A DNA stretch of 64,000 bases from Sulfitobacter sp. S223 (GTDB lineage: Bacteria > Pseudomonadota > Alphaproteobacteria > Rhodobacterales > Rhodobacteraceae): assembly GCF_025143825.1 (NCBI RefSeq), contig NZ_CP083560.1, positions 2,108,001 to 2,172,000 on the forward strand. The letters are read 5' to 3'. Positions 29,196 through 35,636 of this stretch are shown in pieces. Each line of letters begins with the position of its first letter. The first letter of the stretch is position 1. The notes beneath the pieces were generated by a model. The model was not told where the DNA came from. It did no database searches and saw only the letters and a program-made list of their open reading frames with translations. Both the position numbers and the translations under genes were made by a program.

Positions 29196-30572
29196 TTATC
29201 TGGTGATGATCTCTGGACCCATCATCAGCGTTGGCAACCACGTCGAGATGATCGGGATGTAGGTCACCATAATCAGGAAGACAAACAGCACGGCGAGGAA
29301 CGGCAGCGCTGCGCGCACAACATTCATCATCGGCATGTTCGCCACGCCCGATGTCACGAATAGGTTGAGACCCACTGGCGGCGTGATCATCCCGATTTCC
29401 ATGTTCACCACCATGATGATGCCAAGGTGGATCGGATCAATTCCAAGCTCGATTGCGATCGGGAAGACCAGCGGTGCCACGATAACCAACAGGCCCGATG
29501 GCTCCATAAACTGGCCACCAATCAGCAGGATCACGTTCACGATGACCAGGAACATCACCGGACCAAAGCCGGCATTCAGCATCGCAGCCGAGATTTGCTG
29601 CGGGATCTGTTCATCCGTCAACACGTGCTTCAGAATCAGCGCATTGGCGATGATAAACATCAGCGTGACCGTCAGCTTGCCCGCCTCGAACAAGGTGTCG
29701 CGCACATCGCGGTGGAAGAACACTGTGAGCAGCGCCTTGGGTCTCTGCCACAGGGCCAGATTGTTGCCGTCACCGGCCACGTGCAATGGCCCCATATCAC
29801 GGTAGACAAAGTTGGCGATAAAGAAGGCATAGACCGCCGCAACAGCCGCCGCTTCGGTGGGCGTAAAGATGCCGCCGTAAATGCCGCCCAGAATGATCAC
29901 GATCAGGAAAAGGCCCCAACCAGCTTCAAATCCGGAGGAGCGAACTTCGCCCCAGCCGCGCCATTCGCCTTTCGGCAGGTTACGGACCCGCGCAATGATG
30001 TAGATTGTCACCATCAGCATCGTACCGGCCAACAGGCCAGGAATGACGCCCGCAAGGAACATCCGCCCCACGGACACATCCGTTGCCGATGCATAGACAA
30101 CCATCACAATGCTGGGCGGGATCAGGATGCCCAAGGTGCCTGCAACCGCAATGACACCCGCGGCGAAATCCTTTGTATAGCCGACTTCGCGCATACCCAC
30201 GATGACGATAGACCCGATCGCCACCACAGTGGCCGGAGACGAACCGGAAAGCGCGGCAAACAGCATACAGGCAAAGACGCCTGCAATCGCCAGACCGCCA
30301 GGCAAATGCCCGACCAGCGCGATGGAGAAGCGGATGATCCGCCTTGCCACACCGCCTGTGGACATAAACGACGACGCAAGCACGAAGAACGGGATTGCAA
30401 GCAGCGTATAGTGCCCCGCCATCGCCTGAAACAGCGTCTGCGCAATAGAAGCCAGCGAAGTATCGGACAGCACCAGCAAGAAGATAATGGAGGACGTCCC
30501 CAGCGAGATCGCGATTGGAACACCAATCAGCATCAGGCCGATGACCATCATAAATAGGACTACAACTTCCAT
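29196..30572 (-). CDS. dctM: TRAP transporter large permease DctM
   Basis: Large membrane subunit of 458 residues with about 12-13 helices; it forms the sodium-driven transport path of a tripartite C4-dicarboxylate-type transporter. Hallmarks are GVPIAISLG, the FAALSGSSPATVVAIGS and GTLGILIPPSIVMV re-entrant segments and ITPPVGLNLFV near the C-terminus. The insert near residues 200-290 is larger than in the shortest DctM proteins. It follows dctQ by 4 bases. Confidence 0.94.
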   Translation of the reverse strand: MEVVVLFMMVIGLMLIGVPIAISLGTSSIIFLLVLSDTSLASIAQTLFQAMAGHYTLLAIPFFVLASSFMSTGGVARRIIRFSIALVGHLPGGLAIAGVFACMLFAALSGSSPATVVAIGSIVIVGMREVGYTKDFAAGVIAVAGTLGILIPPSIVMVVYASATDVSVGRMFLAGVIPGLLAGTMLMVTIYIIARVRNLPKGEWRGWGEVRSSGFEAGWGLFLIVIILGGIYGGIFTPTEAAAVAAVYAFFIANFVYRDMGPLHVAGDGNNLALWQRPKALLTVFFHRDVRDTLFEAGKLTVTLMFIIANALILKHVLTDEQIPQQISAAMLNAGFGPVMFLVIVNVILLIGGQFMEPSGLLVIVAPLVFPIAIELGIDPIHLGIIMVVNMEIGMITPPVGLNLFVTSGVANMPMMNVVRAALPFLAVLFVFLIMVTYIPIISTWLPTLMMGPEIITR

Positions 30573-30576
30573 CCGC

Positions 30577-31257
30577 TCAGTTCCCCGCGTTCATATGTTG
30601 GACATCTTTGATGTCATCTTCTGCTTCATGGCTCACGATCAGGCTGGTTGCGTCGCCGCGCCAGACGCGGAAGAAGGCCTGAATGAACCGGAATAACAGC
30701 AAAGCCATCCCAAACGGCAGCATCGCATAAGGAATGAAGCGCGGCAGTTTTTCGTAGGCTTCACCCTCGTTCATGATCGGCTCAATCCAGCGGAGCCATT
30801 CGGGGAACGGGATATCGATCACCTCGTACCAGGCCTGATCGCGCGTATTGGCAAATCCTGTTGGAAACCAGCGGCCTGTTGTTGCATCCAAGCCGGCGAA
30901 AGGTGCCCAGTAGTCCCAAGCACCCTTCAGTAGGAAGGCTGCATAGAGGATGCAGATCGCGCCTGCGATCAATGCAAGCACCCGTCGTACGGACGGTGAA
31001 AACAGATTGATCACCGCATCCACGCCCAGTTGTGCTGTCACTTTGACCGTGTAGCTAACACCAAAAAGAACAAGCCACGCAAAAAGGAAGGTGACTGATT
31101 CAAGCCCCCAGATCAGGCCAGTGTTAAAACCATAGCGCAACACAACATTGATAAAGGTAATGATCGTCATCAGGCCCAGAAGGACAGCAATCGCGGTCTC
31201 TTCGATTTCGTTAACGATGCGGCCTATTGCCGTCTTTGCCACGTAAGCATGTGCCAT
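30577..31257 (-). CDS. dctQ: TRAP transporter small permease DctQ
   Basis: Small membrane subunit of 226 residues with four helices; it docks the large permease. Family pattern EEWETAxxxxxxxxxxxFxxVxxRYxFN is seen as ETAIAVLLGLMTIITFINVVLRYGFNTG. Residues 125-180 form an unusually long soluble loop (WAPFAGLDATTGRW, FPEWLRWIEP) between helices 3 and 4. The ATG at 31257 has GGAG upstream; the longer reading to 31320 covers the upstream hairpin. Confidence 0.92.
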   Translation of the reverse strand: MAHAYVAKTAIGRIVNEIEETAIAVLLGLMTIITFINVVLRYGFNTGLIWGLESVTFLFAWLVLFGVSYTVKVTAQLGVDAVINLFSPSVRRVLALIAGAICILYAAFLLKGAWDYWAPFAGLDATTGRWFPTGFANTRDQAWYEVIDIPFPEWLRWIEPIMNEGEAYEKLPRFIPYAMLPFGMALLLFRFIQAFFRVWRGDATSLIVSHEAEDDIKDVQHMNAGN

Positions 31258-31305
31258 GAAACACTCCTGCTGATGGGGGGATAGCACGCGATGCGTGCAA
31301 AACTT

Positions 31306-31334
31306 CACCCCGCCCGTCATGTGCAGGCGGGGTG
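31306..31334 (-). terminator. Intercistronic hairpin between dctP and dctQ
   Basis: Perfect 9-bp stem CACCCCGCC / GGCGGGGTG with an 11-base loop followed by a short T run on the minus strand. Such hairpins after binding-protein genes usually let only part of the transcription pass, so that DctP is made in excess over DctQM. Confidence 0.55.
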
Positions 31335-31351: not shown

Positions 31352-32347
31352 TTAGTGCTTGGCGTTGATCGCCTGAGCTGCGTCGATGTTCTCTTGGCCA
31401 ACGTCGGCCTTGAACTCTTCCCAGACAGGTTTCATTGCAGAAACCCATGCCTCACGGCCTGCTGCGTCCAGTTCACGTACGACGCCGCCTGCTTCAAGGA
31501 TCGCGGCCTTGGCGGCTGCGTTCACATTGGTGGATTCAGCGTTACGTGCTGCAGTCACTTCGTCCACGATGGTGGACAGCTGCGTGCGCACGTCTTCTGG
31601 CAGACCCTCGAACCAGTCTGTCGATGTCACCAGCATGTAGTCGATGATACCGTGGTTGGTTTCGGTGATACCGTCCTGCACTTCAAAGAACTTCTGGCCG
31701 TAGATGTTGGACCATGTGTTCTCTTGCCCGTCGACAACGCCGGTTTGCAGCGCGCCATATACTTCGGAGAATGCCATTGGCTGTGGGGATGCACCCATCG
31801 CCGCCATCTGTGCTTTGAGAACGTCAGAGTTCTGCACGCGGAACTTCAGGCCGTCTGCATCTGTCGGCAGGTTCAGCGGCTTGTTGGCCGACATCTGCTT
31901 CATGCCATTGTGCCAGAACGCAAGGCCCAGCAGGCCGCGGCGTGTCATGGATTCTTTCATCGCCTGACCGGTTTCGGAGTTCTGGAACTCGTCCACGGCA
32001 TTGATGTTTTTGAACATGAAGGGCAGATCGAAGATGCGGAATACTTTGGTGAACTGCTCGAACTTGGACAGCGAGGGTGCTGCCATCTGAACGTCACCCT
32101 GAAGCAGCGCTTCGAGAACCTGGTCATCGTTATACAATGTAGACTGCGGGAAAACTTCCATGCAGGCTTTGCCGTTCATCTCTTCGTTGACGCGGCTTTC
32201 CAGCAACGAGGCTGCGATGCCTTTAGGGTGCTTGTCTGTGTTGGTGACGTGGCTCAGCTTGATGACGATTTCGCCGTCGTCGCATGCAGCAGATACAGCG
32301 CCAGCTGACAGAGTGATGGCCATAACGGCCGCGGTTACAAATTTCAT
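31352..32347 (-). CDS. dctP: TRAP transporter periplasmic binding protein DctP
   Basis: Periplasmic solute receptor of 331 residues with signal peptide 1-20 (cleaved near VSAAC). Family markers are LSHVTNTDKHPKG near the mature start, FKNINAVDEF and GLKFRVQNS with the arginine that binds the substrate carboxylate (near 170), then VDGQENTWSNIY. It fits a C4-dicarboxylate or related organic acid receptor. The ATG at 32347 has GGAGGAG upstream. First gene of dctPQM, behind two palindromic sites and next to dctBD. Confidence 0.95.
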   Translation of the reverse strand: MKFVTAAVMAITLSAGAVSAACDDGEIVIKLSHVTNTDKHPKGIAASLLESRVNEEMNGKACMEVFPQSTLYNDDQVLEALLQGDVQMAAPSLSKFEQFTKVFRIFDLPFMFKNINAVDEFQNSETGQAMKESMTRRGLLGLAFWHNGMKQMSANKPLNLPTDADGLKFRVQNSDVLKAQMAAMGASPQPMAFSEVYGALQTGVVDGQENTWSNIYGQKFFEVQDGITETNHGIIDYMLVTSTDWFEGLPEDVRTQLSTIVDEVTAARNAESTNVNAAAKAAILEAGGVVRELDAAGREAWVSAMKPVWEEFKADVGQENIDAAQAINAKH

Positions 32348-32426
32348 GATGTCTCCTCCCAGAGAATTTGATCACAGGGCGGCTTTTCGCCGCGCTGAAC
32401 GCACTATTTAGCGACAGCTCGCCCAC

Positions 32427-32442
32427 TGCAAGCGCCCTGTCA
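32427..32442 (-). promoter_or_regulatory. Weak sigma-54-like -24/-12 element before dctP
   Basis: TGACAGG-GCGC-TTGCA on the minus strand resembles TGGCACG-N4-TTGCA, 80 bases before the dctP ATG, but the second base of the -24 GG is A. Since the neighbouring DctD lacks the sigma-54 contact loop, this may be an eroded or chance site. Confidence 0.25.
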
Positions 32443-32531
32443 TACTGACACTAAAATTACCGATTTTGCTGAAATATTAAAAGCTTACCAAAAACCATCC
32501 GAGATGGTAGCGCCAACATCTATCCGTATCC

Positions 32532-32547
32532 GTGCGGAAATCCGCAC
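32532..32547. promoter_or_regulatory. DctD-type operator, copy A
   Basis: Perfect inverted repeat GTGCGGA-AA-TCCGCAC between dctD and dctP, about 190 bases before the dctP start. Its centre is 32 bases, about three helical turns, from copy B. Confidence 0.7.
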
Positions 32548-32562
32548 CGCGATCCGGCAAGC

Positions 32563-32580
32563 TGTGCGGAAATCCGCACA
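32563..32580. promoter_or_regulatory. DctD-type operator, copy B
   Basis: Perfect inverted repeat TGTGCGGA-AA-TCCGCACA with the same 16-base core as copy A. It ends 15 bases from the dctD stop codon. Two like-phased copies suggest cooperative binding of a dimeric regulator. Confidence 0.7.
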
Positions 32581-32595
32581 ACCATACCGACCGAC

Positions 32596-33834
32596 TCAGG
32601 GGCGAAAGTCTTCGGGTTTGATCGCGTAACGCGCGCACTTGTCGTAAAACGTCTTGCGCGGCAGCTTGAGAACACGGGCAGCCTCGCTTGCTTGTCCGTC
32701 TGTCCGCCGCAGCGCCCCTTCGATAAGGGACTGCTCAATCTGGGCCATATGCGCGACCAGGCCCAAGCTCTCGTCGACCTGCTCTTGCTTGTCACCATCA
32801 CTCATCCCCATGACAAAGCGCATCGCTTCGGTCATCAGGGAACGGGCATTGCCCGGCCAGTCACGCGCCATCAAAGCCGCCTCAAGTTGCGGCGTGATCT
32901 GCGGTGCTGGTTGACCGCTTTGCTCGGCGGCTTGTGCAACGTACCGGTAAAACAGAACCGGAATGTCATCTCGGCGCTCGGCCAGCGACGGGATGCGCAC
33001 AGGCATCACATTCAGGCGGTAGTAAAGGTCCGCATTGAAACGCCCCGCCTCCAATTCCGCTGAAAGATCACGGGTCGAACCGGCAATAAGCCGCGTGGCA
33101 GGGGCACCGTCCAGCGTTTCGGCCAACGCGAGCTGGCTCTGGGCGGGCAGCCTGCTGACTTCATCTATGAACAGGCTTCCGCCTTCGCCCTCTTCATAAG
33201 CAGCGGCCAACGCATCGGCGTCCAGATCATGGGCGGCACGTTTGATAAACGGGCGCTTAGAGCGGAGCGAGCATAGGTGGATGACTTCGGCTACTTTTGA
33301 AATGCCCGTGCCCTGAGCACCGGTGATCATCACGTCGCCTTGCGCTTGTGCCACGCGACGGACGTGATTGCGCAAGCCCTGCGCCTGTTCGGATGTCCCG
33401 AAGATCATCCGCTCTGCCGGATCGCCGTGATCGACCATCTCGCGCAGCTCGCGGTTCTCAAGCACCAGCGCACGGGTCTTGAGGGCGCGCCTAACAACAG
33501 CCAACAAGTCATTTGCCGCACAGGGTTTTTCCAGAAACCCGAATGTGCCCTCACCCATCGCTTTAACGGCCATTGGAATATCGCCCTCTCCGGTGAGCAA
33601 AATCACCGGCAAATCAGGGTCTATCCCGCGCACATAGGACAGCAGGTGAAACCCGTCCCGCCCCGGCATACGGATGTCCGATATGATCACCCCGTCAAAC
33701 TGCGCCGAGATATGGTCAGCCGCGACGACAAAGGCGCTGGCTGTGATACACGTGAGGTCTGCCAGCTCAAGCGTCTGGGACAGGGCCTCGCAGATGGCGG
33801 CATCATCATCGACCAGAAGGACAGTCTTGCTCAT
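32596..33834 (-). CDS. dctD: DctD-like NtrC-family response regulator with degenerate AAA+ domain
   Basis: Response regulator of 412 residues. Receiver domain 1-115 with phospho-acceptor D53 in ISDIRMPGRDG and K in LEKPC. The AAA+ domain about 135-345 is unusual: its Walker A reads GAQGTGIS, so the lysine is lost, and the GAFTGA loop that touches sigma-54 is missing, since IKRAAHDLDADAL runs straight to EGEGGSLFIDEV. Walker B and RFNADLYYRLNV are kept. Residues about 372-412 are a Fis-type helix-turn-helix. Likely a DNA-binding regulator that works without sigma-54. The ATG at 33834 overlaps the dctB stop as ATGA. Confidence 0.9.
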   Translation of the reverse strand: MSKTVLLVDDDAAICEALSQTLELADLTCITASAFVVAADHISAQFDGVIISDIRMPGRDGFHLLSYVRGIDPDLPVILLTGEGDIPMAVKAMGEGTFGFLEKPCAANDLLAVVRRALKTRALVLENRELREMVDHGDPAERMIFGTSEQAQGLRNHVRRVAQAQGDVMITGAQGTGISKVAEVIHLCSLRSKRPFIKRAAHDLDADALAAAYEEGEGGSLFIDEVSRLPAQSQLALAETLDGAPATRLIAGSTRDLSAELEAGRFNADLYYRLNVMPVRIPSLAERRDDIPVLFYRYVAQAAEQSGQPAPQITPQLEAALMARDWPGNARSLMTEAMRFVMGMSDGDKQEQVDESLGLVAHMAQIEQSLIEGALRRTDGQASEAARVLKLPRKTFYDKCARYAIKPEDFRP

Positions 33835-35576
33835 GCGGCTCTTTCCTGTGTCATAGGTTGCAACGTCACGGTGAAACACGCGCCGCCATCGGTGTTGTGC
33901 GCGCGAATCTCGCCATCGACACTTTGGACGATGGCATAGCTGATCGACAGACCCAGCCCCATCCCCTTGGCCGCGCCGACGTCTTTGGTCGAATAAAAAG
34001 GATCAAACACCTTCTCCGGCGCGGTTATGCCGTGGCCACTGTCGGTGATCATTGCCGTCACACCGTGCGGCTCCAACCGGATCACAATCTCAAGCCTGCG
34101 CTTCTGGACATCCATCATTGCATCCAGCGCGTTGGATATAAGGTTCACGAAAACCTGCGCCAGCCGCACTTCGCCGCCCCGAACCCAGACCGGCGCATCG
34201 GGCGCATCATAGACCAGTTCAACATCCATGTCGTTCCGCCGCGCTTGTGTCAGGTCTAGCGCAGATGCAATAACCACGCCCAGATCGACTTGCACCTGCT
34301 TCACCGTCTCTTGTTTGGAGAATGCGCGAAGGTTCTTGATAATGCGGCCCATCCGGTGCGCCATCTCCGAGATACGGGTCAGATTTTCTGTCGCCCGTTC
34401 CGGCGCGCCGCGTTCAATGAATTTCACGCCGTTTTCCGCAAAGGACTGGACGGCCATCAGCGGCTGGTTCAGCTCATGGCTGATGCCGGCACTCAGCTGT
34501 CCCAAGGCGCTAAGCTTGCTTGCTTGCACCAGATCGTCTTGCGCGCGTGCAAGTGCCATCTGCGCCTGTGTCCGCTCTGCCGCTTCGCGGCGCAATTCGT
34601 TATTAATGTCGCGCAGCGCTTGGGTACGTGCCCGCACCCGCGCCTCCAACTGGGCATTGGCCCGCGCCAATGTCCGCCGCCGTTCGGTTGCCAGAAACAA
34701 CAGCGCGCCAAAAGCCAGAAAAAGCGCGGCGACCGCGGCTGCCTGCGCATTGGCCAGACGCCGCACAACGGCCACATCCATCAACACTTCTCCCCGCATC
34801 CCGATCACAGGCAAATCCTGCACCAGATGCAAAGCCACGTCAGGCAGATAAGGGCCCCATCCCAGATGCCAAATCTCATGCGGGCCGATATAGCTGGCGT
34901 CAAACGCAGGCTCGTTCCCCAGTGGCGGGCGCAACCCCGGCGCGCCTTTTGGGCGTTCCCAGTAAATCAGCTCGGACCGGTTCGAGACCTGGACCTGTCC
35001 ACGCGCATCGGTGAAAAATACAGGTGGCGTATCGCCGCGCCACGCATAATCGACCGAGCTGAGATCTGTGGACACCACCAAAGCGCCCAACACGCGACCC
35101 TGCCCGCCAAAAACCGGCGCTGCGTAAAAGTAATTTCGCCCCGTCTCTAATCCCGAACCATAACCACGCCCCAACGCACCGTTAAGGGCGCGGCGGACAT
35201 ATGCCATCGCATTCGCGCTGCCAGCGCCGTCCCCCGCGGCGGCAAGAACGCGCCCCGTCCGGTCAATCACCATGACATCCAGCGCAGCAGAGCGGTCCGC
35301 CACACCCTGCAACAAAGCAGTATCTTCGGGGCGCACGGTCCCTTCAAGCACTTGCAGAACCTGTGGATGGTCAGCCATGACAACCGCCAGATCGCGGTAG
35401 CGTTGTAGCTGCCCGACCAAGCGGTCACTGGCCAGCGCCAGATCGGCCGCCCCCCGCGCAGACAGCCGTTCCAACCCTTGATGGGTCGCATAGCGCCAGA
35501 CCGAAACGCTCAGCACGGCGACGCAGATCAGAAAACCAACAATGCTCAGGCCGCGCCTGCCAAACCTGTATCTCAT
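33831..35576 (-). CDS. dctB: DctB-type sensor histidine kinase
   Basis: Membrane sensor of 581 residues that should phosphorylate DctD. Helix one about 9-28, periplasmic tandem PAS/Cache sensor about 30-265, helix two about 272-295, coiled coil about 300-345, then HisKA with the phospho-histidine in GISHELNQPL, and a HATPase domain with NLISNALDAM (N box), DSGHGI and GMGLGLSIS. The ATG at 35576 is chosen because it opens a basic segment before helix one; 35606 would add ten residues. Neither start has a clear ribosome site. Divergent from the P450 gene. Confidence 0.9.
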   Translation of the reverse strand: MRYRFGRRGLSIVGFLICVAVLSVSVWRYATHQGLERLSARGAADLALASDRLVGQLQRYRDLAVVMADHPQVLQVLEGTVRPEDTALLQGVADRSAALDVMVIDRTGRVLAAAGDGAGSANAMAYVRRALNGALGRGYGSGLETGRNYFYAAPVFGGQGRVLGALVVSTDLSSVDYAWRGDTPPVFFTDARGQVQVSNRSELIYWERPKGAPGLRPPLGNEPAFDASYIGPHEIWHLGWGPYLPDVALHLVQDLPVIGMRGEVLMDVAVVRRLANAQAAAVAALFLAFGALLFLATERRRTLARANAQLEARVRARTQALRDINNELRREAAERTQAQMALARAQDDLVQASKLSALGQLSAGISHELNQPLMAVQSFAENGVKFIERGAPERATENLTRISEMAHRMGRIIKNLRAFSKQETVKQVQVDLGVVIASALDLTQARRNDMDVELVYDAPDAPVWVRGGEVRLAQVFVNLISNALDAMMDVQKRRLEIVIRLEPHGVTAMITDSGHGITAPEKVFDPFYSTKDVGAAKGMGLGLSISYAIVQSVDGEIRAHNTDGGACFTVTLQPMTQERAA

Positions 35577-35636
35577 GAGCGGTAATTTATCTGCTGGCCC
35601 TTGCATTTACCAGCACAACTGCGCTTTCTGCCGCCT

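Follow-up and report, generated by a model that had tools for sequence, protein, structure and literature searches.

Within the 64,000-nucleotide stretch of Sulfitobacter sp. S223 DNA analysed here (the window), two copies of one palindrome lie in front of dctP, and they raise the question of which protein reads them and with which form of RNA polymerase the gene downstream would be switched on. The genes concerned all run on the minus strand and comprise dctB (sensor histidine kinase, 33831..35606), dctD (NtrC-type response regulator, 32596..33879), dctP (TRAP substrate-binding protein and presumed controlled gene, 31352..32347), dctQ (small TRAP membrane subunit, 30577..31320), and dctM (large TRAP membrane subunit, 29196..30572). 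The locus bears on an open evolutionary question, namely, how the sigma factor at an enhancer-driven promoter can change without loss of control.

Twin palindromes and the DctD operator

The sequence GTGCGGAAATCCGCAC occurs twice in the 248 bp that separate dctD from dctP, at 32532–32547 and 32564–32579 on the plus strand, with starts 32 bp apart (about three helical turns), as a first-pass annotation of this DNA had reported. The perfect 14-base symmetry claimed there holds for the arms, 7 + 7 bases in each copy, and fails at the centre, where the AA is asymmetric. The box edges lie 16 and 48 bp past the dctD stop (32596), both upstream of dctP, and in the direction of transcription (minus strand) both boxes read GTGCGGATTTCCGCAC. 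The distal box (32564..32579) sits in a full TGTGCG-N6-CGCACA 18-mer at 32563–32580 and matches its outer letters at 12/12 positions; the proximal box (32532..32547), 32 bp nearer dctP, matches them at 10/12. A chance origin of the pair had been called very unlikely, and the shuffles agree: at least one 7+2+7 palindrome arose in 248 of 20,000 single-base shuffles of the gap and at least two arose in 2 of 20,000. Across the 4.03-Mb genome, GTGCGGANNTCCGCAC has two sites with 0 mismatches, both in the gap, and one further site with 1 mismatch; at up to 2 mismatches, there are 24 sites vs 22 for the reversed-pattern control, and these looser matches are thus background.

The identity of the site was assessed by comparison with rhizobial dctA. 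An excerpt of PMC11077940 gives TGTGCGgaaatCCGCACA as the sequence bound by DctD in R. meliloti, places two DctD sites upstream of Rhizobium dctA, and credits the DctD upstream activating sequence of dctA to Ledebur and Nixon 1992 and Scholl and Nixon 1996. The window 16-mer is contained in TGTGCGgaaatCCGCACA, and on S. meliloti pSymB (L140) TGTGCGGAAATCCGCACA stands before dctA, confirmed as an SDF symporter gene, with letter-for-letter identity to that 16-mer. Because the same letters stand before S. meliloti dctA and in the published sequence, the site is a catalogued one and is DctD's, so that the earlier remark that it is not a catalogued operator was mistaken. The C-terminal end of the DctD helix-turn-helix is also nearly the same in both organisms (LPRKTFYDK in the window, IPRKTFYDK in S. 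meliloti). The two systems are alike in their 18-base operator, in tandem sites (33 bp apart in S. meliloti, where TGTGCATGTTTTCGCCCA further out is taken to be a degenerate partner site), in the C4-dicarboxylate uptake gene downstream, and in control by DctB/DctD. They differ in that S. meliloti has a degenerate second site, a DctD that has both GAFTGA and GETGSGKE, and, 75 bp downstream of the box, a sigma-54 promoter (TGGCACGCATGTTGCT, score 18.1), whereas the window has both sites intact, a DctD without the loops and the lysine described below, and a proposed sigma-70-like promoter about 99 bp on.

Conservation upstream of orthologous dctP genes, the check that the first-pass annotation had set itself, was found throughout the genus. 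A close DctD (≥64% identity) is present in 29 of 36 genus genomes (our own and 35 others) and not in the other 7, and dctP lies downstream in 29/29 of these loci. Both boxes fit a slightly relaxed pattern in 27 of the 29, at 32 bp in 23 and at 33 bp in 4, and the remaining two (L020 and L042) have one clean and one decayed box. With the TGTGCG-N6-CGCACA sequence and two in-phase sites (32/33 bp) upstream of a C4-dicarboxylate transporter gene, the window element belongs to the DctD operator family on the grounds of sequence, layout, and linkage. The operator identity with S. meliloti and the conservation upstream of dctP together support the annotation's assignment of the twin boxes to DctD, and they are very probably DctD sites. 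That some other protein uses them is very unlikely: the literature matches listed include no footprint of a DctD from the branch considered here, which leaves room for such a protein, and against it stand an operator identical to that of S. meliloti, the near-identical recognition end, and the linkage of dctBD to dctP in two gene orders.

DctD without the parts for sigma-54

The window DctD consists of a receiver, an AAA+ core, and a Fis-type helix-turn-helix, the composition of an NtrC-family response regulator, and its likely start is the internal Met of MSKTVLL. Its structural model (pLDDT 84.5) found NtrX as best Foldseek match and NtrC-family structures only among the best 50 matches listed. 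An alignment of 16 proteins shows no variation at the receiver residues D25, D26, D68, T96, and K118. Compared with relatives that carry GAFTGA, the AAA+ core has lost 19 L1 residues, including GAFTGA itself, and about 12 L2 residues; an excerpt of the review PMC7175178 names L1 and L2 as the loops that may deliver the power stroke to sigma-54. Its Walker A reads GAQGTGISK, with the lysine lost. The GAFTGA and lysine losses characterize what we call loopless DctDs: the GAFTGA columns are fully deleted in 29/29 genus, 26/26 family, 33/34 held-out, and 80/80 named DctDs, the Walker A lysine is absent in 168/168 loopless DctDs (a sum of overlapping sets), and Walker B (DE) is retained in most. 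No GAFTGA-like motif was found in 20 extra DctDs from loopless genomes without strict twin boxes. None of five NtrC-family proteins of the S223 genome (L005-L008 and L010, DctD included), a count that leaves out four weaker PF00158 matches of 20–26 bits, has GAFTGA; the replacements differ, and DctD alone among the five has also lost the Walker A lysine.

The polymerase partner is missing as well. Neither sigma-54 domain profile (PF04552, PF04963) found a match in the S223 genome, with positive controls detected in both searches. A profile search with the sigma-54 DNA-binding domain gave a credible rpoN in 0/36 genus genomes, the only traces being partial matches in G015 and G025 (20.8 and 22.7 bits, respectively) against a cut-off of 22.8, and the core-binding domain was found in 0/33 genus genomes, G015 and G025 included and the three least complete genomes left out. 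With no GAFTGA, no Walker A lysine, and no detectable rpoN, the window DctD cannot be an ordinary sigma-54 activator; three defining features of that group are missing, and it does not belong to it. Among 295 family genomes, 124 have a loopless DctD, a class assigned by E-value alone (up to 1e-115), and 98 of these lack rpoN and 26 have it; rpoN is present in 65 of the other 171, the tally being 91 credible matches with 9 weak scraps uncounted. The association of loopless DctD with rpoN absence has a Fisher p of 0.002 with genomes treated as independent despite their relatedness.

A conventional reading would make the boxes a sigma-54 enhancer from which DctD, by ATP hydrolysis, opens a sigma-54 promoter of dctP, and the same operator in the same tandem layout does precede a sigma-54 promoter in S. 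meliloti and in two GAFTGA-bearing relatives (L173 and L098). Upstream of the window dctP, the sigma-54 promoter TGGCACG-N4-TTGC was not found, the best score being 8.6 with a scoring matrix for this promoter class. That score belongs to the weak sigma-54-like string TGACAGGGCGCTTGCA at 32427–32442, which overlaps the proposed -35 and may be a relic or a chance match; it falls within the range of other loopless loci (up to 9.7), against 13.8–18.1 in GAFTGA relatives and 18.1 in S. meliloti. As GAFTGA, the L2 loop, the Walker A lysine, and a detectable rpoN are all missing, we give this reading almost no credence.

The best NCBIfam match of the window DctD is PgtA (NF047793), at 255 bits vs a cut-off of 650. 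Because the match spans 410 positions of the 414-residue profile, the PgtA profile is of loopless length like the window DctD, and PgtA, which serves a different transport system, may be another sigma-54-free DctD relative. For the loopless branch of DctD, annotations of the type "sigma-54-dependent" would mislead.

Promoter layout downstream of the boxes

The boxes and dctP also remain together beyond the genus. Strict twin boxes were found in 70 of 394 family genomes, with 0 for the reversed-pattern control. Besides the window and G014, 68 twin sites were examined, 30 first and 38 later, with another palindrome (G280) left out, and dctP lies downstream in 66 of the 68 (28/30 and 38/38). The two exceptions, L061 and L068, were rejected as DctD boxes, having a different palindrome and no dctP in their flanks. 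Strict twins are not the rule among loopless DctDs (only 57/124 genomes of that class), and 20 of the other 67 genomes were sampled for this reason. In 17 of these 20, dctP was in reach, and all 17 have a box pair of 16–19/20 letters at 31–33 bp, against a best of 13–15/20 letters in shuffled controls (20 shuffles each). Likewise, dctP was present in 76 of 80 named loci, of which 75 have a pair of at least 18/20 letters, 74 of the 75 at 32/33 bp, and named records of Sulfitobacter, Roseobacter, Tateyamaria, Ruegeria, Shimia, and Pseudooceanicola show the arrangement.

These comparisons bear on whether the palindromes act as RNA, as hairpins at which the dctD transcript would be terminated or trimmed. 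They begin 16 bp past the dctD stop, and self-pairing of the RNA is conceivable; no T run follows the palindromes, however, and across relatives the outer letters of the boxes are kept and the middle varies, a protein-site pattern. In divergent relatives (L271-L277), moreover, the box lies in the shared dctB-dctP gap in 6/7 loci, more than 1.7 kb from the dctD start. We find the hairpin reading scarcely credible, and the boxes are further discussed as DctD sites.

Expectation maximization (EM) without positional constraint on 57 loci yielded a CTTG-type -35 with a TtTacT-type -10, at log-likelihoods of 149.6 (17-bp spacer) and 166.0 (18-bp spacer) against a maximum of 66.5 in six locally shuffled sets; the two models describe one promoter and differ by a one-base shift of the first hexamer. 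The leader was cut off before the final EM because an earlier EM had converged on the Shine-Dalgarno sequence, L061 and L068 were left out of the promoter sets, and L045 was left out of promoter training. With the 17-bp model, the TTG falls 97–101 bp past the proximal box in 45 of the 57 loci and elsewhere in 12. The matrix from the 57 loci placed the -35 at the same distance in 30/38 held-out twin-box loci and in 60/76 named loci, which are partly of the same species, and in only 9/17 loci without strict twins. In an ungapped count from the box, 51 of 66 loci have a TTG no more than 1 bp away from +99; the median for other offsets is 4 loci, and the second distinct peak, at +50, reaches 22. 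Anchoring 60 of the 66 loci with shifts of up to 3 bp, the six without a TTG within 3 bp of +99 being left out, gave the -35 consensus cTTGAgc. L173 was left out of the anchored and IHF sets because its DctD has GAFTGA.

At the window locus, the corresponding position holds a putative -35, TTGCAG (32426..32431, minus strand), 100 bp past the proximal box, and a putative -10, AATAGT (32403..32408, minus strand), after a 17-bp spacer; the unconstrained EM picked another position at this locus. Judged by its -35/-10 pattern, the window promoter may be used by a sigma-70-family factor. RpoH-type -35 elements begin with CTTG, and the factor could on that account be another member of the sigma-70 family, of RpoH type for example, rather than RpoD, a variant within the explanation that we prefer. 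The anchored consensus, with a C before the TTG in 60% of 60 loci, speaks for this variant; the -10, weak across the loci, is too weak to assign and leaves the RpoD and RpoH types unseparated, and we think the variant rather unlikely.

Between the boxes and the promoter, the 60 TTG-aligned loci share the block tAA-N4-tTGAaA (+43 to +55), followed by an A-tract that spans +64 to +67. The block resembles the other-strand IHF consensus, YAANNNNTTGAWW. At least 7 of the 9 positions are matched in 57/65 family, 24/27 genus, and 66/69 named loci, and in 22/195, 4/81, and 28/207 control windows, respectively. The window copy, TAAGCTTTTAATA (32475..32487, minus strand), lies 44 bp past the proximal box, a position that is fixed in relatives, and matches 8/9 informative positions of YAANNNNTTGAWW, and the genome encodes IHF alpha and beta. 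Since the exact consensus is rare (1/65 family loci in the middle window) and the block is A-rich and lies in an A/T-rich region, which favours chance matches, the IHF site is put forward as a proposal. Overall, the layout is recurrent and fairly rigid, with boxes 32/33 bp apart, a -35 about 99 bp on, a -10 after 17 bp, and an IHF-like site halfway.

Downstream of the putative -10 lie a candidate leader stem-loop, GCGCGGCGAAAAGCCGC (32379..32395, minus strand), with weak folding support, and a Shine-Dalgarno-like GGGAGGAGA before dctP (32352..32360, minus strand). Relatives seem to have a stem-loop of different sequence between the -10 and the dctP ribosome site as well; as a conserved leader hairpin it was rejected, the folding mean z being only -1.0 over 57 loci.

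Relatives, known regulators, and a proposed mechanism

Living relatives appear to represent the start, the middle, and the end of a change in which the operator stays constant and the activator, polymerase partner, and promoter change. L173 (genome G396) combines strict twin boxes, 32 bp apart, with GAFTGA, an intact P-loop, a sigma-54 promoter (13.8), and rpoN; L098 (G063) has boxes of 11/12 and 10/12 letters at 32 bp and likewise GAFTGA, an intact P-loop, a sigma-54 promoter (14.7), and rpoN. Both keep the ancestral state. In L259-L261, GAFTGA is lost and the P-loop lysine is kept. In L259, a clean box (12/12) and a decayed one (8/12) lie 33 bp apart, and TTGATC stands at 99 bp with a spacer of 17 bp; no -35 was found at 99 bp in L260 and L261. 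rpoN is present in the genomes of the latter two (G321 and G264, respectively), and that of L259 (G115) is not among the rpoN matches. The DctDs of L262-L268 have lost both loops and Walker B, and their dctBD genes are divergent from dctPQM; in three divergent loci, the box pair stands at 41 bp, about four helical turns. A DctD tree of the "quick" kind, with SH-aLRT support only, orders these states from GAFTGA through a partial loop to divergent and loopless forms, at 94–99 on the steps with a weak root. The idea that the -12 element of an old sigma-54 promoter turned into the -35 was not upheld by the -24 positions of L173 and L098; since the -24 TGG lies at 98 bp in L173, the position of the loopless -35 TTG, and at 52 bp in L098, no homology is claimed.

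Several NtrC-family proteins offer precedents. The 1998 study of R. capsulatus NtrC by Bowman and Kranz calls the protein ATP-dependent in its title. According to excerpts of PMC10274813 and PMC3162934, this GAFTGA-less NtrC is reported to act on the housekeeping polymerase. It resembles the window DctD as an NtrC-family protein without GAFTGA from the Rhodobacterales and differs in its operator, its target, and its ATP dependence by title, vs the lost lysine in the window. R. capsulatus HupR is presented in an excerpt of PMC3162934 as a GAFTGA-defective, sigma-70-dependent NtrC-family response regulator. It is unlike the window DctD in controlling hydrogenase genes through another operator. 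IHF is involved at R. capsulatus hupSL, and we know of no stepwise series leading to HupR from a sigma-54 relative. Caulobacter NtrC, in an excerpt of PMC10274813, lacks eight L1 residues, GAFTGA among them, a deletion described as unlike that in R. capsulatus NtrC and smaller, and is reported to control sigma-70 promoters; its operator and target are other than those of the window DctD. For Jannaschia, which lacks sigma-54, an excerpt of PMC3162934 suggests that a GAFTGA-variant enhancer-binding protein may be sigma-70 dependent. Like R. capsulatus NtrC and HupR, the window system has no GAFTGA and tandem sites far upstream, and by analogy it may work most like these two, which are known here through the accounts of citing papers. 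The literature matches listed, in a search that left subscription journals largely outside its scope, contained no paper on a GAFTGA-less or sigma-54-independent DctD in Rhodobacteraceae.

We consider it probable that the twin palindromes descend from a sigma-54 system, in which they served as a DctD enhancer, and that a DctD independent of sigma-54 now uses them to act on a sigma-70-family promoter. In Sulfitobacter, we infer, DctB would sense C4-dicarboxylates and phosphorylate DctD through its intact receiver residues, after which two phospho-DctD dimers would bind the boxes cooperatively, side by side on one helix face. An IHF-type bend at +43 to +67 would fold the roughly 100 bp between boxes and promoter, so that DctD could touch RNA polymerase carrying a sigma-70-family factor at the TTG-N17-(-10) promoter and turn dctPQM on. 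The contact would recruit or stabilize polymerase rather than remodel it, and ATP hydrolysis is probably unneeded, given the loss of the Walker A lysine and of both sigma-54 loops. The fuller claim, more tentative and one that we doubt slightly more than we believe, is that this whole Rhodobacteraceae DctD branch, once an ATP-driven sigma-54 activator, may have become ATPase-dead and, switched by phosphorylation, now activate a sigma-70-family promoter. Its old operator would have stayed unchanged, and the formerly flexible enhancer would have become rigid, with the boxes held to 32/33 bp, the IHF hinge to about +43, and the -35 to about +99; surviving intermediates would mark the steps. Such a sigma switch would be directly testable in marine bacteria that are not pathogens.

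An ATPase-less DctD could instead be a repressor that occupies both boxes and silences dctP as long as dicarboxylate is absent, as some GAFTGA-less NtrC-family proteins do repress (TyrR type, PMC3162934; Caulobacter NtrC at some genes, PMC10274813; both in excerpt). The boxes do not cover the proposed -35, which lies about 100 bp further downstream, and mutants of Ruegeria pomeroyi also speak against repression. In an excerpt of PMC10130141, which assigns fumarate, succinate, and malate uptake to the R. pomeroyi genes concerned, growth loss on fumarate and succinate was 96.9% and 81.8% for SPO2630, 99.1% and 92.6% for dctM (SPO2626), and 96.7% and 75.2% for SPO2628, which by elimination is dctP; malate growth was not significantly lower in the SPO2628 and SPO2630 mutants. 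SPO2630, named a sensor protein in PMC4809877 and a regulatory protein in PMC10041152, is thus needed for fumarate growth like the transporter genes, which is consistent with an activator, with the reservation that its insertion may be polar. Six Ruegeria or Ruegeria-like records are among our loci, R. pomeroyi itself not being one of them. A repressor is distinctly unlikely on these grounds, and activation by DctD from the boxes is preferred.

Two further observations concern neighbouring sequences. The palindromes of L061 and L068, GTGCGCTTCAGCGCAC and GTGCGCTACAGCGCAC, stand 34 and 32 bp apart and are perhaps another regulator's paired operator. In 29 of the 30 proteins fetched from a separate Rhodobacteraceae DctD branch (L076-L105), GAFTGA is replaced by GAFPGA, GAFAGA, or a similar motif; in four loci of this type and in L108, dctP lies within the 1.5-kb flank with no upstream sigma-54 score above 9.7, and the P-loop of the branch is mostly intact.
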